DNA of 33,324 nucleotides, taken from contig JAUWJS010000010.1 in the NCBI GenBank assembly GCA_030607575.1, positions 1-33,324 on the forward strand, given 5' to 3'. The position numbers and the translations under genes are program-made. This DNA is from Candidatus Heimdallarchaeota archaeon (GTDB taxonomy: Archaea; Asgardarchaeota; Heimdallarchaeia; Heimdallarchaeales; Heimdallarchaeaceae). This document shows, piece after piece, positions 2,116 through 22,346 of the stretch (the first letter of the stretch is position 1; every line of letters starts with the position of its first letter). The notes under the pieces are model-generated. The model ran no database searches. It had not been told where the DNA came from and saw only the letters and a program-made list of their open reading frames with translations.

Positions 2116-3828
2116 CTATTTCTTAATTACTTCTTGTTTGATATCAGGAGCTCTAGTAATACTTCTAGCTGCTGCTTCACTTTGTCGTAAATCTTTTCGG
2201 GAGACTTTACCTACAGCAGTTCTTGGTAGATCTTCCTTGTACTCAATAATTGTTGGTATTTTGTAAGGAGCTAGTTTATCTTTGCAGTAAGCTCTGATTT
2301 CAGCACGAGATAGTTCTTTAGATCCTGGTTCAGTAACTAGAAAAGCTTTAACTTTCTCAGAAGTACCTTCTTTAACTTGAACGACACCAACCATATTGAT
2401 ATCGGGATGAGCATAAAGAACTTCTTCTACATCACTAGGCCAGACCTTATATCCAGATACAATAATCATATCTTTTGCTCTGTCTACTATTTTGAAGAAA
2501 CCTTTTTCATCCATTGATGCAATATCACCAGTTCTTAGCCAACCTTTGACTAAAACAGCATCTGAAGCCTCCTTATTATTCCAATATCCTTTCATAACAC
2601 TAGGACCGCGAACCCAAAGTTCTCCTTCCTTACCATATTCTGTGAGTTCTTCTTGAGTATCAAGATCAACTATCATAGCCAGAGTATTAGGGATTGGAAT
2701 ACCAATAGCATTAACCTTACGTAAGTTCTTATTTCCAGGATTGACATGAGTGACAGGAGACGATTCAGACAAACCATATCCTTCAATTAAGACTCCTTCA
2801 ATGGCTTCTTCAAATTTTTCAGCTGTAGATTGAGGAAGGCTTTCTCCACCAGATATACACAAGTAAAGAGAGGATAAGTCATATTTGCCAATATCAGGAT
2901 GTTCAGCTATTTTTTGATAAAGAATAGGGACTGCAAACATGAAATGAATTTTATGCTTACTGACACTCTGCATAACTTCCTCAAGTTTCCTTGGATCAGG
3001 AATAAGATAAAGCAATCCACCTACAGCAATAGTCCAAAGGAAAGAGGTTGAAAAACCAAAAATATGCGACATGGGAAGACAACCAGATATTCTGTACTGG
3101 CCTTCAGGTCGGGAAGGTAACCATATATCCCAATAAGGTAAAATGGTAGCCTGAGCCATGAGGTTGTAGTTTGTGAGCATCGCGCCCTTCATGATTCCAG
3201 TCGTACCCCCAGTGTACTGCAAAACTGCAACATCTTCTTTTGAATCTACTTTTGTTTCTATTCTCTTATTTTCACCTTTCTTCAAGAAATCCTTGTAGGC
3301 TAACTCATCAAGTAATTTAGGATTCTTTCTTGCTATTATATTCTTATATAGAAATGCTGTAAATCCTGGTAGTTCATCACCTATTGAACCTACTATAACA
3401 AATTCAAGTTTTGTATCGTCTTTTACTTCTCTAACCTTATCTAGAAACAGATCTAGTGTAATTATTGCTTTTGCTTCACTATCCTGCAGCTGATATCTTA
3501 TTTCTTTTGCGGTATACAATATACTTATTGCTGTAAAAATCGCACCTAAAGAATTTACTGCGAAAAATGCTACAACATATTGTGGACAGTTGGGCATTAA
3601 ACATGCAACTCTATCTCCTTTTTTTATCCCTATATCTTTGAGAGAATTTGCAAATTTGTTTACATCTTCTTCCATTTCTTTATAGGTTTTGAATTTTCCT
3701 TTAAATTCAGTAATTTGTCTGTCAGGAAACTTCTCTGCCGTGTTTCGAAACATTTCTACAATGCTAATTTCTGGTACGTCTATATGATCAGGAATTCCTT
3801 TGCAATAGCTCCATATCTTTTCTGGCAT
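2116..3828 (-). CDS. Long-chain acyl-CoA ligase / AMP-binding enzyme
   Basis: 570 aa; P-loop YTGGTTGIMKGAMLTN, GYGLSESSP, GWLRTGDIA, C-terminal PRTAVGKVSRKDLR: ANL superfamily hallmarks. Confidence 0.93.
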   Translation of the reverse strand: MPEKIWSYCKGIPDHIDVPEISIVEMFRNTAEKFPDRQITEFKGKFKTYKEMEEDVNKFANSLKDIGIKKGDRVACLMPNCPQYVVAFFAVNSLGAIFTAISILYTAKEIRYQLQDSEAKAIITLDLFLDKVREVKDDTKLEFVIVGSIGDELPGFTAFLYKNIIARKNPKLLDELAYKDFLKKGENKRIETKVDSKEDVAVLQYTGGTTGIMKGAMLTNYNLMAQATILPYWDIWLPSRPEGQYRISGCLPMSHIFGFSTSFLWTIAVGGLLYLIPDPRKLEEVMQSVSKHKIHFMFAVPILYQKIAEHPDIGKYDLSSLYLCISGGESLPQSTAEKFEEAIEGVLIEGYGLSESSPVTHVNPGNKNLRKVNAIGIPIPNTLAMIVDLDTQEELTEYGKEGELWVRGPSVMKGYWNNKEASDAVLVKGWLRTGDIASMDEKGFFKIVDRAKDMIIVSGYKVWPSDVEEVLYAHPDINMVGVVQVKEGTSEKVKAFLVTEPGSKELSRAEIRAYCKDKLAPYKIPTIIEYKEDLPRTAVGKVSRKDLRQSEAAARSITRAPDIKQEVIKK

Positions 3829-4908: not shown

Positions 4909-6252
4909 ATGCATAGAGAACAGAACATTTGTCAAAAATGTGGAAATTTGCGTATAGGTAATTCATTACGTTGTTCTTCATGTAATAATTTGATACCTAT
5001 TACGCCAATTCAAGGTCCCTCTAAATCTGTTATTACTCTAACATCTATGTGGTCTTTAAGAGATTTTCTTCCAAATTACTCTGATCCTGTTTCCTTACAT
5101 GAGGGAAACACGCCACTTCTAAAGGTTAAGAATCTAAGGAATCTTCTAGATTTAAGTTTGAAACTGGAATTCAGAAATCCTACTGGATCCTTTAGAGATA
5201 GAGCTAGTTCTCTGATAATTTCAGATGCTGTTGAGAGTAAAAGCTCTCAAGTAATTGGTGCAAGTACAGGGTCTTTTAGTATCAGTTTATCAGCTTATGC
5301 TGCAAAAGCTGGAATAAGATCTCAAAATGTAATTCCTCAAAATTTAGAACTTTCTAAAATTGAACAAATGAAGGTTTATGGTAGTAATGTAATCGAAATT
5401 GGCGATTCGGTTGAAGAATCTATTGCTGAAGCGAACAGGCTTAGTACTGAAACAAATGCTTATTTAGCAACTCCTGAAAACAATGTTTTAGCTATTGAAG
5501 GTCAAAAAACCTTAGGCTTAGAAATAGCTTTACAAAAAGAGTTTTTTGATGCTCTAATTATCCCTAGAGGATCTGGGTCTCTTATATATTCAATCTATAG
5601 AGGTCTGGAAGATGCACTTGCTTCAGACTGGATAGACGAACTCCCCAGAATTTATGCAATATCTTTAGAGAAAACAAAGAGTGCTTACATGGCTGAATCC
5701 TTAGAAATAGAACAACCTTTTCTTTTAGAGGAAGTACGGGAAACAATTAAGTTTTCTAAAGGAAAAGAGATAGAAATTGATGCTCAACAGATGATTGAGG
5801 AAGCTTTGAATCTTTCCAAAAAGGAAGGATTATTTATTGAACCAGCTTCAGCTTCTGTTTTAGTAGCTGCTGATGAGTTGATTAAAGAAAAAGAAATAAA
5901 TCCTCAACACAGCGTTGCGATTCTTTCTGGATCTGGTTTTAATGCACTCAATATTTATGCTTCTCAATTGAGAGATAAACGAAAAGTCGTTTGGGGTTTG
6001 TCTGAAAGTTCTACAACTAAATTTGAGATACTGAATCTAATTTCAGAAGGTAAAGCGACTTATGGAATTTCTCTTTGGGAATCCTTAGGACGAGCTAAAT
6101 CTAAACAATCTATTTATCAACATCTGAACCAACTTCAAGAGAAAGGCTTGATTGTGCTATTCGAACAAGATACTAAAATTAAGGAGTTCAAAGTGACAAA
6201 GAAAGGATTTGAAACCTTGGAAAAAATGAGAAATCTTATAGATTTTCTTTAA
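4909..6252 (+). CDS. Threonine-synthase-like (PLP fold type II) protein with N-terminal zinc ribbon and C-terminal winged-helix domain; PLP lysine position replaced by Arg
   Basis: CQKCGN...CSSCNN zinc ribbon; HEGNTPLLK; NPTGSFRDRAS (normally NPTGSFKDR); then KFEILNLISEGKATYGISLWESLGRAKSKQSIYQHLNQLQEKGLIVLFEQDTKIKEFKVTKKGFETL = wHTH. Confidence 0.85.
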   Translation: MHREQNICQKCGNLRIGNSLRCSSCNNLIPITPIQGPSKSVITLTSMWSLRDFLPNYSDPVSLHEGNTPLLKVKNLRNLLDLSLKLEFRNPTGSFRDRASSLIISDAVESKSSQVIGASTGSFSISLSAYAAKAGIRSQNVIPQNLELSKIEQMKVYGSNVIEIGDSVEESIAEANRLSTETNAYLATPENNVLAIEGQKTLGLEIALQKEFFDALIIPRGSGSLIYSIYRGLEDALASDWIDELPRIYAISLEKTKSAYMAESLEIEQPFLLEEVRETIKFSKGKEIEIDAQQMIEEALNLSKKEGLFIEPASASVLVAADELIKEKEINPQHSVAILSGSGFNALNIYASQLRDKRKVVWGLSESSTTKFEILNLISEGKATYGISLWESLGRAKSKQSIYQHLNQLQEKGLIVLFEQDTKIKEFKVTKKGFETLEKMRNLIDFL

Positions 6253-6324: not shown

Positions 6325-6663
6325 CTAATCTTGACAGCTTCCATCTTGTAATTTATCTTTAATTCTGTCTCTAATCATGTCTTGAATTTGATCACATAAA
6401 TTATCACAATCACAATCACAATTACAATCGCCATCACCTTCGCAATTGCAATCGCAATCACCATCACAATCACCTAAACGATTGTGTAGTTGATATCTTT
6501 CATGGATTTGCTCTAAATCAGTATCTCCAGAACTGAAGAATGAGAAATATTCGTTACCAGTGCTAACTGTTTGATTTGAGGATGCGAGCTGCAATGTAAA
6601 AATCAGTAGAACAGCTAGACTAAAGCCGATAAATAGGTTTTTTGCCTTCATAGGTTTCGCCAA
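6325..6663 (-). CDS. Secreted/anchored small Cys/Asp-rich repeat protein
   Basis: 112 aa; N-terminal hydrophobic signal/anchor (KNLFIGFSLAVLLIFTLQLASS), then GDCDGDCDCNCEGDGDCNCDCDCDNLCDQ. Confidence 0.7.
   Translation of the reverse strand: MAKPMKAKNLFIGFSLAVLLIFTLQLASSNQTVSTGNEYFSFFSSGDTDLEQIHERYQLHNRLGDCDGDCDCNCEGDGDCNCDCDCDNLCDQIQDMIRDRIKDKLQDGSCQD
6408..6475. repeat. Low-complexity CAATCA/CAATCG-type hexamer repeat encoding the Cys-Asp/Asn tract
   Basis: caatcacaatcacaattacaatcgccatcaccttcgcaattgcaatcgcaatcaccatcacaatc. Confidence 0.8.
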
Positions 6664-6780
6664 GATTTTGTGATGTACGTATTTATTAATACTTACTGCT
6701 TTAGAAAACTAAAGTAATCGTAAAACTCTATTATAGGAATTTTTAAGACTTAACTGCGCACCAAAAAAGTTATAATAAAT

Positions 6781-6802
6781 TATTCAAGTTGTAACTTGAA
6801 TA
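6781..6802. promoter_or_regulatory. 22-bp palindrome (candidate operator) upstream of ECF transporter operon
   Basis: TATTCAAGTT-GT-AACTTGAATA: two perfect 10-bp arms with 2-nt spacer, just 3' of a TATA-like gttataataaat. Confidence 0.7.
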
Positions 6803-7707
6803 TTATCTGTGGTGTTGTACGAATGGAACAAGAAGTAGGTTTGCGTCAAAGTCTAATTAATGAAGTGAATTCAATAAGAAATTTATCATTGATTGTTACT
6901 TTTACAGGTCTAGTATTTCTTTCTACTTCTATATTCTTTATTGCCATACCAGCTTCAAATGGATTTTTCAACATAGGAGAAGCTTTTGTATATCTAGCAG
7001 CTTTAATCGGAGGACCTATTACCGGAGCTATTGCAGGTGGTTTAGGTGCTTCTATGGCTGATTTAGCTTTAGGGTATGGTATTTTTGCACCTGCAACTGC
7101 AATTTTAAAAGCTGCTGAGGGGTTTGCTGTAGGATTACTTTTTCATTATGGAAAAAAGATGAAGAAATGGTTGAAGTTCCTTTTCATTGGAATTATTTGT
7201 TCTTTCTTAATTGTTTTTTCAGCAATTTTTGTAAATCAAACATTTGAATTTGGTCTTTCGTTATATGGAGGTGAACCCACGTTTCTTATTGGGTTCTCAA
7301 GGCTGATAGAAACTAGTATTTTCCCAGTTGCTTTAGCTTTTTCTGGTGGTAGAACATTTATTATGGATATTCCAGGTTATGCTTTCTTGATTATTGCTCT
7401 CATTCTTTCTACTCTCATTGTTTTAGTTGTGATTTTTCTAAAAGAAAAAGGCGAAATGGCATTATCCTGTACTATAGGTGGAATGATTATTGTTTTAGGT
7501 TACTTCTTCTATGAAACAGTTGTTCTAAATTATCCCGTAGGAGGGGCTGCAGTTGAGATTCCATTTAATATTGCTCAAGTTATTCTTGGAGCAGCGATTG
7601 CCATACCTATTGTTTCTTATTTGAGGGAACTTGGAATAATACATTCTGAAAGAGATGTGGAATATTCGGACCTTGAAGAAGATCTGATAGAAACCAACGA
7701 GAATTAG
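6796..7707 (+). CDS. ECF transporter S component (substrate-binding membrane subunit); true start probably ATG 6823
   Basis: GEAFVYLAALIGGPITGAIAGGLGASMADLALGYGIFAPATAILKAAEGFAVGLL and GYFFYETVVL...EIPFNIAQVILGAAIAIP are S-component signatures. TTG at 6796 lies inside the palindrome, ATG at 6823 starts MEQEVGLRQSL. Confidence 0.85.
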   Translation: MNIICGVVRMEQEVGLRQSLINEVNSIRNLSLIVTFTGLVFLSTSIFFIAIPASNGFFNIGEAFVYLAALIGGPITGAIAGGLGASMADLALGYGIFAPATAILKAAEGFAVGLLFHYGKKMKKWLKFLFIGIICSFLIVFSAIFVNQTFEFGLSLYGGEPTFLIGFSRLIETSIFPVALAFSGGRTFIMDIPGYAFLIIALILSTLIVLVVIFLKEKGEMALSCTIGGMIIVLGYFFYETVVLNYPVGGAAVEIPFNIAQVILGAAIAIPIVSYLRELGIIHSERDVEYSDLEEDLIETNEN

Positions 7708-7732: not shown

Positions 7733-9370
7733 ATGCTTAAGGTTAAAGATTTAACAGTAAAATATCCAACACAAAAAAAATATGCTCTTAAATCAGTAAA
7801 CTTTGAAGCACAAATAGGAGAATTCATTGTTGTAGCAGGTGCTAGTGGAAGTGGGAAAAGTACATTAGCTCAAGTCTTAATGACACTAATTCCTAATTTT
7901 ACACAAGCAGAAATTTCTGGTGATGTTTCATTCAATAATCTTTCATTTAACGAATTTACTAGAGAAAATCTAGTCAATACTTTAGGTTATGTACCTCAAT
8001 ATCCTAGTGACTTTACTACTTCATTACTTGTTGAAGAGGAAATTGTTTTTTTGTTAGAAAACCTTGCAGTAGATTCAGAAGAGATTTTATCTTCACTTAA
8101 TCAAGTATTGGAAGAATTAGGTATTAGTAAATTAAAGAGAAGACTAATCCCTGAATTAAGTTCTGGAGAATTGCAGAGAGTATTTTTAGCATCAGCTTTA
8201 GCTTTTACACCACCTATCATTATTCTGGATGAACCTATTGCTAGGATTGATCCTAAAACAGAGGTAAAACTTGTTGAACTGCTAAGAAATTTAGCTGATA
8301 AAGGTCATTTAGTAATAGCCTTTGAACACCGTCTCGATTATATTGCAACAAAAGCTAATAGGCTAATTATCTTGAAAAATGGGGAGATAGTTAGTGATGA
8401 GCACCCATCTAAAACTATAGAGATGTTAGAAGAGATTGATCCACCAGAACTGTCTCTGATAGATTCCGAAAATAGAGACAAGATACTTTCTCTTGAAGAT
8501 CAAATTGATTCGAAAAGAATAATATCAAGAATTAAGAAAGCAAATACTTCAGAGCTATTCAAGTTAGAAAACAAGAAACCAAGTGATACTGCCATTTCTT
8601 TGAATCATGTTAATTTTAGATATAACAATAAAAGTAACTGGATATTGAAAGATGTAAATCTTCAATTTAAGAAGGGAGAATCTATAGGATTGATGGGGAT
8701 AAATGGTTGCGGAAAATCTACATTATTGAAAGTTATTTTAGGAGTTGAAAAAGTAAAGGAAGGTGAAGTTTGGAGTAAAGGAAGAAGAATTAAGAATGTT
8801 AGAAAGGGAAAGAAAGATTCTATATATGTTCCTGAAAACGCGAAACTATTCCTAATTGGACCTACACCAGTACAAGATCTAGAAAGACAGCTTAGAAATG
8901 AAGAAGAAGTAGTGGAAATCTATAGCAAATTCAAAATGCAAAAGCTGATGAAAAGAAAGCTCTATCATTTGAGTGAAGGAGAAAGAAGACTTTTTGCTTT
9001 GATAAACTCATTTCATTTTCAAGAGGATTTTATTTTGTTGGATGAACCTACAATTGCTTTGGATAAAAAAGGTCGAACAATTCTACTTGAATTAGTTAAG
9101 ACAGCAACAGATAATGGAAACACAGTTATTCTTGCATCCAATGATCCCAGAATTGTAACTTCTTTGGATAGATTAATTGTTATTGAAAAGGGAAATATTT
9201 GTCTAGATGGACCTCCTCGAGAAGTTCTTTATAACTTAGAGAAACATACAAATTTGATACCTAATCAAACTGTAAGATTCATTCAAAAGCTCGAAAAAGA
9301 AACAGGTCTATCTCTTCCTAGAATTCTTAATCCTAAAGAATTCAACGTTTTACTTAAGGAGGCTGAATAG
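7733..9370 (+). CDS. ECF transporter energy-coupling ATPase, two fused ABC domains (EcfA-type)
   Basis: 545 aa; Walker A GASGSGKST and GINGCGKST; signatures LSSGELQR and LSEGERRL; Walker B IIILDEP and FILLDEP. Confidence 0.93.
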   Translation: MLKVKDLTVKYPTQKKYALKSVNFEAQIGEFIVVAGASGSGKSTLAQVLMTLIPNFTQAEISGDVSFNNLSFNEFTRENLVNTLGYVPQYPSDFTTSLLVEEEIVFLLENLAVDSEEILSSLNQVLEELGISKLKRRLIPELSSGELQRVFLASALAFTPPIIILDEPIARIDPKTEVKLVELLRNLADKGHLVIAFEHRLDYIATKANRLIILKNGEIVSDEHPSKTIEMLEEIDPPELSLIDSENRDKILSLEDQIDSKRIISRIKKANTSELFKLENKKPSDTAISLNHVNFRYNNKSNWILKDVNLQFKKGESIGLMGINGCGKSTLLKVILGVEKVKEGEVWSKGRRIKNVRKGKKDSIYVPENAKLFLIGPTPVQDLERQLRNEEEVVEIYSKFKMQKLMKRKLYHLSEGERRLFALINSFHFQEDFILLDEPTIALDKKGRTILLELVKTATDNGNTVILASNDPRIVTSLDRLIVIEKGNICLDGPPREVLYNLEKHTNLIPNQTVRFIQKLEKETGLSLPRILNPKEFNVLLKEAE

Positions 9371-10096
9371 ATGTCCTTTATGTTAAAGAGAATTTATGAT
9401 GGTTTTTTGTATAAACCAGATAAACTACAAATTCACCCATTATTTGGAATTAGTATTGTATTCGTTCAATTTGGATTTTTAGTTCTTAACAAAAACTGGG
9501 TGTTAGCACTATTGTTAACATTCATCATTTTTGAAAATGTTATTTTTAAAAATATAAGAGGATCCTTGAGTATTTTGTGGGCTCTTTTACCAATTATAAT
9601 ACCTCTAGGAGGGTTAACTTATATCTTTGGAGGGTGGCTTCTCGTGTATCGTGTCTTAATGCGTTTACTTGTTGGAGGATTAGGTTTTTCCTTTTTCTTT
9701 TCTATTGTTAATCCTTCAGACTTGACAAGAAGTCTTGAAAAATTAAAAATCCCAACCAAAATTGCATTGATTCCATCTCTAGCTTTAATGATGATTCCAA
9801 GGATAGCTAAAGATGCTGAAGACACTTTTACCACTCTAAAAATTAGGGGTGAAATCAAAGGTATTTTTTTGAGATGGTTACCAAGAGTATTAGCAATCTT
9901 TATTGCTTCAGTAATCTATAGATCAGAATTCCTAGCACAGTCTTTATACTTCAAAGGTTTAGGGATACAGAAAAGAACACATTACAGGAAAATTCCTTTC
10001 AGGTGGGTTGACCTTTTTAGATTATTTATTTGGAGTAGCTTTATAGTTTGTTTTATTTTGTTCGATAGATATGATTTATTCTATTTCTTCGTTTAG
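9371..10096 (+). CDS. ECF transporter transmembrane coupling subunit EcfT
   Basis: 241 aa; PSDLTRSLEKLKIP, ALMMIPRI, SLYFKGLG coupling motifs; follows ATPase directly. Confidence 0.85.
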   Translation: MSFMLKRIYDGFLYKPDKLQIHPLFGISIVFVQFGFLVLNKNWVLALLLTFIIFENVIFKNIRGSLSILWALLPIIIPLGGLTYIFGGWLLVYRVLMRLLVGGLGFSFFFSIVNPSDLTRSLEKLKIPTKIALIPSLALMMIPRIAKDAEDTFTTLKIRGEIKGIFLRWLPRVLAIFIASVIYRSEFLAQSLYFKGLGIQKRTHYRKIPFRWVDLFRLFIWSSFIVCFILFDRYDLFYFFV

Positions 10097-13039: not shown

Positions 13040-13978
13040 TTAGATCTTATACTCTTGAATTTCCTTATAGTTGCCATCCGATATCTTGAAAGTTTGTGTA
13101 ATAAAATCTACCAATTCTTCTCTAGAATCAGATTCTCTTTTCTCAAGATGGTTAAATATGATTTCAATCAGTCTTTGTGCTTCTATCTGAGAATCATCAG
13201 GTTCTGTAATTAGAGAAATGACGATTTCCCCCCTTTCTTGAAAAACAATTTGTCCATAATTTGAGACAATACTGGCAACTCTTTCCTCTCTTAGAGTATT
13301 ATTCTTATCATCATATACTTTAGCCAGCAAATCTAAAACAGAGATAAGATTGCTAGTTACATCAGAGAAATCCAAGAATAATTTGATGTTACCAAAAATG
13401 GATGATATTATCAACCCTTTAGGAGAGACTGTTTGTTCTTTAATATATTCCTGTATTTTTCTAGTAAACCATTCCATTGCGTTATCAACATTCATTGATG
13501 TCTTAACGCTAATTTCAAAAATCTGAAAGCTTATTTTTGGAAAATTACTGAGTTTTTGTAAATCTAGTACTTCAATAATCTCATCAAGCTCCATAGAATT
13601 CAAATCAGCTTTATTTGCAAGGAAAGCAAAAGCAATTCTACGATCTATTTCTAGATTATTAATAAGATACCAAAACCATTCTTTACCCTCCTCAGTTCGT
13701 TTTCTATTAGAAGCATCAAAAATAAAGAGAATCCCATAACTATTTGCAGCATAATTTAACCAAAATTGCCGCCTTAAAACCTTATGACCACCCACATCGA
13801 ATAGTTTCAGAAGAGTATCTCCAGCTCTAAATATTTCAAAGTTTACTCCAATTGTTGGAGAAGTATTGTCAACCCATTTCCCTTTAACCAATCTTAACGC
13901 TAAACTTGTTTTACCTGCTTGATCTAATCCTAGTAAAGTAACGGGAACTCCCTTCTTATCGAAATTTAAACTTGTCAT
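13040..13978 (-). CDS. Arf/Sar1-like small GTPase with C-terminal longin-like extension (DVGGH type)
   Basis: 312 aa; G1 GLDQAGKTS, switch I SPTIGV, G3 DVGGH, G4 NKAD, G5 SVKT, plus ~120-aa extension. Confidence 0.88.
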   Translation of the reverse strand: MTSLNFDKKGVPVTLLGLDQAGKTSLALRLVKGKWVDNTSPTIGVNFEIFRAGDTLLKLFDVGGHKVLRRQFWLNYAANSYGILFIFDASNRKRTEEGKEWFWYLINNLEIDRRIAFAFLANKADLNSMELDEIIEVLDLQKLSNFPKISFQIFEISVKTSMNVDNAMEWFTRKIQEYIKEQTVSPKGLIISSIFGNIKLFLDFSDVTSNLISVLDLLAKVYDDKNNTLREERVASIVSNYGQIVFQERGEIVISLITEPDDSQIEAQRLIEIIFNHLEKRESDSREELVDFITQTFKISDGNYKEIQEYKI

Positions 13979-21431: not shown

Positions 21432-22346
21432 ATGGGAACTAGAAAGCAACCAGTTAATTTTGTAATACTAGGTTTAGAGAATGCAGGAAAAACCACTTTA
21501 TTAAGAAATATCTCAGGAAAAGAATTTACTGAGACATTTACCACCATCGGTATCAATATTGAGCAGTTAAGACACAGAGGTTTGGATTTCCAAGCAATTG
21601 ATGTTGGAGGACAACTTCACTTTCGTGAAACAATGTGGCAATATTATACGACTTTAGCAAAAGGTGTTATTTTTGTATTTGACATTTTTGACAGAAGCAA
21701 ATTCTTAGAAGCAAAGAACTGGTTTGAATATATCTCACATCGTCTCTCCAAGAAAGCAGTTCTAATGTTTCTAGCTAACAAAATAGATCTTAAAGATGAA
21801 GATGACACATATTTAACAACCGAAGAAATAATAACAATGTTTGAACTTGATAATGTTTCTAAATATCCTGAAAGATCCTTTAGAATATGGGAAATATCAG
21901 CTAAAACTGGTGAAAATGTAAATAATGCAATTTCATGGATGTTCAATAAACTAGTGGAGTTTATCAAAGAGGAGTCAAGAATTTCTTTTGTTTTGGTATT
22001 AGATCAGAATAATAAAATTGTATATAAGACTTCTATAAATGAAAAAACTGATGAATTTGAGACAATCATTAACAAATGCATCATTCAGATGAAAGATCTT
22101 GGTGCAAATGAAAACATGATCTCAATACAAGATTTCTCCGCAAGTATAAAAACAGAAAAAGATTACAGTGTAGTTGTAGGTGCTGAAAAAGGAGTGTCCA
22201 AAGATGATCTTTCAACTGCAACAATATCTATAGCTCAGCTAATAAATACTGAATTTTATCCTCCTGAAAAATTCAAAGATCAACTAGAAGAGGTTGTGAA
22301 CATCTCTCTTCTTCATAATTTAAACAAGAAATCGAGGCATGATTAA
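21432..22346 (+). CDS. Arf-like small GTPase with C-terminal longin-like extension (DVGGQ type)
   Basis: 304 aa; GLENAGKTT, FTTIGI, DVGGQ, NKID, SAKTG, extension ISFVLVLDQNNKIVYKT.... Confidence 0.9.
   Translation: MGTRKQPVNFVILGLENAGKTTLLRNISGKEFTETFTTIGINIEQLRHRGLDFQAIDVGGQLHFRETMWQYYTTLAKGVIFVFDIFDRSKFLEAKNWFEYISHRLSKKAVLMFLANKIDLKDEDDTYLTTEEIITMFELDNVSKYPERSFRIWEISAKTGENVNNAISWMFNKLVEFIKEESRISFVLVLDQNNKIVYKTSINEKTDEFETIINKCIIQMKDLGANENMISIQDFSASIKTEKDYSVVVGAEKGVSKDDLSTATISIAQLINTEFYPPEKFKDQLEEVVNISLLHNLNKKSRHD

Follow-up and report, generated by a model that had tools for sequence, protein, structure and literature searches.

The protein encoded at 4909-6252 of a Candidatus Heimdallarchaeota contig has the fold of a threonine synthase, an arginine in place of the lysine that forms the Schiff base with PLP, and a winged helix (wHTH) at its C-terminus. 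The question raised by this locus is what such a protein senses and which genes it controls. The window, i.e. the whole stretch of DNA that was analysed, is 33,324 nucleotides long. The overall comparison comprised about 150 archaeal genomes; the Asgard survey covered 228 genomes, in which full-length relatives are common.

An earlier note on this DNA had proposed that a PLP-fold protein had been turned into a transcription regulator which senses a ligand. In outline this proposal is supported by a family-wide wHTH with which lysine loss is associated, by the PadR-like fold and by an operator-like palindrome at vitamin B6 genes; the ligand and the targets of the regulator, which that note did not name, point to vitamin B6. 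The protein probably represses vitamin B6 uptake and synthesis in response to PLP; it would be derived from a fold-type-II enzyme without its lysine and resemble bacterial PdxR in its working. For this explanation the lysine loss, the residues of the PLP cradle, the gene linkage, the palindrome shared by Asgard archaea and Thermococcales and the absence of the palindrome where there is no regulator were computed.

The regulator gene and its domains

The following features were assigned to the gene.

4909..6252 (+), regulator gene, 447 aa: zinc ribbon, lysine-less threonine-synthase-like PALP domain and PadR-like winged helix
4930..4983 (+), N-terminal zinc-ribbon-like segment CxxC...CxxC, residues 8-25, from the sequence
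5089..5931 (+), PALP domain (PF00291), residues 61-341, E 5e-55, predicted structure and PDB fold match
5194..5196 (+), codon AGA, Arg96 at the position of the Schiff-base lysine, within NPTGSFRDR
5263..5274 (+), S-T-G-S, residues 119-122, with Ser122 for the Asn of the GN motif; active enzymes read S-T-G-N
5563..5586 (+), P-R-G-S-G-S-L-I, residues 219-226, PLP-phosphate loop, retained
6004..6249 (+), PadR-like winged-helix domain, residues 366-447, profile and fold matches

The zinc ribbon and the overall fold are retained and a wHTH follows, as the earlier note had described: the cysteine pairs, the PALP match and the PadR-like C-terminus were all found. Cysteines 8, 11, 22 and 25, which form the two CxxC pairs, are kept in at least 90% of 59 aligned family members, and the AlphaFold model of the regulator (pLDDT 87) has threonine synthases, e.g. 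6nmx and 2zsj, as its nearest solved folds. The phosphate-loop role of residues 219-226 is our assignment from general knowledge of fold-type-II enzymes. The C-terminus of the window protein gives weak profile matches to PadR and HTH_45 (PadR PF03551, 21.6 bits against a cut-off of 27), and PF03551 is above its cut-off in all six relatives tested. Modelled alone, the C-terminal 92 residues (pLDDT 86) have PadR-family regulators as best structural matches, and in the models this domain resembles PadR regulators.

Loss of the Schiff-base lysine

The codon AGA at 5194-5196 confirms the replacement of the Schiff-base lysine of the NPTGSFKDR motif by arginine. Since all window-family orthologues spanning position 96, down to about 55% identity, carry Arg, it is not a sequencing error, and an isolated mutation or error was rejected on the same grounds. 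In the 111 aligned wHTH-bearing Asgard sequences the position is occupied by R (39), K (31), I (19), L (18) and, once each, by S, N, T and V; the lysine is thus replaced in 80 of them, whereas all 21 Asgard paralogues that lack the wHTH have the lysine. Thermococcota members have Arg in all 34 loci read; in Bathyarchaeia R predominates, beside M, S, I and, in two members, K.

Throughout the family the wHTH is the rule and lysine loss goes along with it. The lysine is kept despite the wHTH in the Asgard family f19, which includes a Lokiarchaeota genome, and in two Bathyarchaeia; as these have the same genomic context, lysine loss is common and not essential to the architecture. The earlier note had proposed to check whether the K-to-R change and the wHTH co-occur; they often do, but several other residues also replace the lysine and these members retain it. 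Orthologues with both wHTH and lysine, which that note had counted against its own reading, exist in f19 and the two Bathyarchaeia, and not in the window family. The loci in question (L057, L060, L062, L064 and others of f19, plus L401 and L402) adjoin the same transporter as the window protein. The genome collection gave 80 named loci, of which 75 encode lysine-bearing proteins without a wHTH.

For a tree of the family, the wHTH and the alignment column of the lysine were left out. All wHTH proteins lie on one side of one branch, but this branch is without support. The presence of lysine needs two changes on the tree and, as the K-bearing f19 nests inside an Arg group, a regain of lysine in f19 is possible; a single clade of all Lys-less members is not clearly rejected (p-AU 0.07). 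One contig of a family-f6 genome (G037:C27, loci L030 and L165) carries a fragment of a locus like that of the window's genus, from either transfer or bin contamination.

Neighbouring genes and a shared palindrome

Downstream of the regulator the following features are found.

6770..6777 (+), TATA-box-like TTATAATA of the transporter promoter, inferred from position
6781..6802 (+), operator-like 22-bp palindrome TATTCAAGTTGTAACTTGAATA, shortly after the TATA-like box and ~20 bases before ATG 6823
6823..7707 (+), ECF transporter S-component (PF07155, HmpT/PdxU2-related), likely start ATG 6823; start in the ORF list TTG 6796
7733..9370 (+), ECF transporter double ATPase, profile match, conserved next gene in relatives
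9371..10096 (+), ECF transporter T-component (CbiQ-like), weak match, conserved next gene in relatives

In 83 Asgard genomes the regulator has an S-component of one sequence cluster as an adjacent or nearby gene, and the same holds for nearly every Bathyarchaeia locus read. Instead of the transporter, pdxS-pdxT adjoin the regulator in family f6, in genomes G058 and G177 and, within the window's genus, in G018; G018 and a second genome of that genus (G003) have PdxS and lack the transporter at the locus. None of the 83 Asgard genomes with a transporter neighbour has PdxS, against 16 of 30 other regulator-bearing ones (raw counts, kinship ignored), and at this locus the transporter and PdxS stand in for one another. 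Cases that speak against the B6 reading are the Bathyarchaeia genome G469, which combines the transporter neighbour with PdxS, and 14 regulator-bearing Asgard genomes which have neither the transporter nearby nor PdxS, in some of them because contigs end. In the window's own genome, which is 88%-complete, neither PdxS nor a clear pyridoxal kinase of family PF08543 was found.

Either the transporter or pdxS carries the palindrome TATWCAAGTTRTAACTTGWATA a short way below its TATA box. In the window's genus it stands before the transporter; f6 genomes have it before pdxS, as TATACAAGTTATAACTTGTATA, and G018 has two copies before pdxS. For the window palindrome at up to three mismatches 0.02 occurrences are expected, and at up to two mismatches it is the single site in the whole 2.49 Mb own genome. 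In the lineages f23, f26 and f28 the intergenic region shared by regulator and transporter contains another palindrome, so that the specificity for DNA has shifted in the course of time. Between divergent regulator and transporter genes (L079, L087, L095-L124) a different palindrome reads AATATATAGG-N6-CCTATATATT or ATATATAAnnTTGAGCCTATATATAGG. A search of upstream regions in Bathyarchaeia gave no palindrome in common.

Further genes are conserved around the regulator. Between regulator and transporter a small predicted secreted protein with Asp/Cys-rich repeats (6325-6663, minus strand) is encoded in most same-genus genomes, and an AMP-binding, acyl-CoA-ligase-like gene (2116-3828, minus strand) is conserved beside the regulator throughout the genus. 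Next to the regulator, f10, f12 and f13 have MCM and GINS genes, and in Thermococcales a beta-CASP gene lies upstream of it; these neighbours are conserved, have no link to B6 and were taken as incidental.

The pocket and its probable ligand

The pocket was compared between 48 Lys-less wHTH proteins and lysine-bearing enzymes. The Lys-less proteins keep the residues NPT.S..DR around the lost lysine, Gly221, Gly223 and Ser/Thr340 near the pyridine nitrogen, the two phosphate-loop glycines being invariant in the family, while many positions fixed in core threonine synthases have drifted. The retained residues presumably serve the phosphate loop and the pyridine nitrogen as they do in fold-type-II enzymes. 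In the same comparison no family-specific conserved lysine that might replace the lost one was found in the PALP domain. Such conservation agrees with a ligand of cofactor size that is bound without a Schiff base.

The altered GN motif pointed out earlier does read STGS, and all window-family orthologues have Ser or Ala in place of the Asn; the loss of this Asn, however, goes no further than the window's group and those most closely related to it. Affinity for PLP could be low in this group, because the residue expected at the PLP O3' is Ser or Ala.

The loss of this Asn would also suit a regulator of B6 genes that senses another ligand in the old active site, such as an amino acid, O-phosphohomoserine or a PLP-amino-acid adduct. 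The ancestors of the fold bind amino-acid substrates, and a fold-type-II protein without its lysine can hold an external aldimine; the K-to-A mutant of O-acetylserine sulfhydrylase (1d6s) is among the fold matches. We consider such a ligand unlikely, since the targets found are genes of B6 uptake and synthesis, whose natural end product is PLP, and since the residues that have drifted include many conserved in threonine synthases and do not include the phosphate-loop glycines.

Proposed mode of control

With PLP as the most likely ligand, the protein would govern the supply of vitamin B6 as a one-component transcription regulator. The threonine-synthase-like domain, with catalysis lost and the PLP cradle kept, would sense PLP or a B6 derivative non-covalently, and the PadR-like winged helix would bind, as a dimer, to the palindrome that closely follows the TATA box. 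Ample PLP would make it shut off transcription of the B6 ECF transporter (window's own genome) or of pdxST (relatives), and a shortage of PLP would release it from the operator. In archaea, an operator that lies past the TATA box and spans the start site occupies a repressor position. Here the site lies across the expected transcription start, which suggests repression, and as the targets are those of B6 uptake and synthesis, PLP would be the simplest signal, as co-repressor. We infer PLP as the ligand, direct binding of the palindrome by the regulator, and repression with PLP as co-repressor.

A regulator which activates its targets when free of PLP would follow bacterial PdxR, whose apo form activates pdxST (PMC5320631). 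The place of the palindrome, which is that of an archaeal repressor, makes such a mode improbable.

Thermococcales allow regulator and palindrome to be followed separately, as in these genomes the regulator gene is unlinked to B6 genes. The same palindrome is found below the TATA box upstream of pdxS, and in a genome-wide search nearly all sites precede pdxS or a PF07155 S-component. Upstream of pdxS the mean number of mismatches to the palindrome is 2.1 in 19 regulator-bearing genomes and 6.0 in 15 genomes without the regulator (Mann-Whitney p 2e-6, kinship ignored). Regulator-bearing genomes have at most three mismatches, except for G257 and G259 with five each, and genomes without it have at least four in every case; in these 15 genomes the palindrome is absent upstream of pdxS.

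This association bears on the idea that another, unlinked regulator binds the palindrome and that the linked protein is an enzyme or has some other role. In its favour, palindromes differ between lineages, and binding of the palindrome by the regulator is our deduction. We give this idea little credit, because the palindrome tracks the presence of the regulator both in Thermococcales and in Asgard families, including f3, whose genomes have PdxS, no regulator and no palindrome, and because the regulator has a wHTH of its own and adjoins the site in families f1 and f6.

The substrate of the transporter

The neighbouring S-component is above the cut-off of PF07155, the family to which the known B6 transporters PdxU and PdxU2 belong (PMC9997740), and among solved structures only 4HZU_S is convincingly related to it; the substrate identified for this protein, HmpT/PdxU2, is pyridoxamine (PMC4860826). 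At low identity, the window S-component has equivalents of HmpT/PdxU2 residues Glu41, Tyr120, Asn140 and Gln143, and Lys and Glu at the positions of His84 and Gln87.

PF07155 is named for riboflavin transporters and HmpT was at first thought to be a hydroxymethylpyrimidine carrier (PMC4860826), so that transporter and regulon might concern riboflavin or a thiamine precursor and the B6 link be incidental. This is very unlikely, as the same palindrome also precedes pdxS and as transporter and PdxS swap at the same locus.

Relation to known families

The fold and zinc ribbon are those of threonine synthase (ThrC), which supplies the best PDB fold matches, and the PALP fold is present; the window protein differs in lacking the catalytic lysine and in the added wHTH, and it is below the cut-off of every NCBIfam threonine synthase model. 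The Thermococcales equivalog NF004170 / PRK05638 has the same domain order end to end, with the Lys-to-Arg change in 34 of 34 Thermococcota loci read; it is annotated as an active enzyme, and the window protein scores 270 bits against its cut-off of 421. The members read in Thermococcales (L251, L332-L360, L403-L406 and L408) all have a wHTH and no Schiff-base lysine, and the name 'threonine synthase' is probably wrong for this equivalog.

The active thrC that the earlier note expected elsewhere in the genome was found among the lysine-bearing paralogues: locus L002 on contig C45 reaches 570 bits against the PRK08197 threonine synthase model (cut-off 303), and by this measure active threonine synthase is supplied by paralogues such as this one. 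That the protein is itself an active threonine synthase carrying a regulatory domain, and its Arg a local mutation or an error, agrees with the NCBIfam name and with the lysine of one Asgard family and two Bathyarchaeia, but is hardly tenable with Arg in every window-family orthologue and all 34 Thermococcota loci, Ile, Leu and others elsewhere, and a proper threonine synthase in the same genome; for Lys-less members it was rejected on the orthologue evidence.

Bacterial PdxR, of the MocR/GabR family, likewise joins a domain derived from a PLP enzyme to a wHTH, and its targets are pdxST and pdxU (PMC5320631). PdxR has an N-terminal GntR wHTH and a fold-type-I aminotransferase domain, whereas the window family has fold type II, usually without the lysine, and a C-terminal PadR-like wHTH. 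The window protein thus lies outside the structural definition of MocR/GabR/PdxR (N-terminal GntR wHTH, C-terminal fold-type-I aminotransferase), from which the earlier note had rightly kept it apart; judged by operator and context, it shares with this group B6 synthesis and uptake genes as targets.

Enzyme-derived vitamin regulators are already a known theme in archaea. RbkR and ThiR, which we take to consist of an enzyme-derived domain and a wHTH, also control the genes of a vitamin, and differ from the window family in having other folds and serving other vitamins (B2 and B1). Their regulon roles in archaea have been described (PMC10746257). No earlier description of a lysine-less B6 regulator was found in the openly available papers searched, and as far as could be found there, this is the first vitamin B6 regulator indicated in archaea.

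The family is a previously unrecognised one, spread over Asgard archaea, Bathyarchaeia and Thermococcales. It is likely that this widespread and ancient family, annotated as threonine synthase, is the archaeal B6 regulator, a PLP pseudoenzyme with Schiff-base-free sensing, a palindrome common to Thermococcales and Heimdall-type archaea and an origin independent of PdxR. If so, archaea gain a vitamin B6 regulator, the name 'threonine synthase', wrongly given to this family in many genomes, is accounted for, a substrate is assigned to an archaeal ECF transporter, and bacteria and archaea would separately have made PLP sensors from unrelated PLP enzymes.

Other genes in the window

Elsewhere in the window two Arf/Ras-like small GTPase genes are found (13043-13978 and 21432-22343), as expected in an Asgard archaeon. 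The product of the gene at 1410-2105 has a PARP-type zinc finger at its end (PF00645, E 7e-17), a domain which is to our knowledge unusual in archaea.
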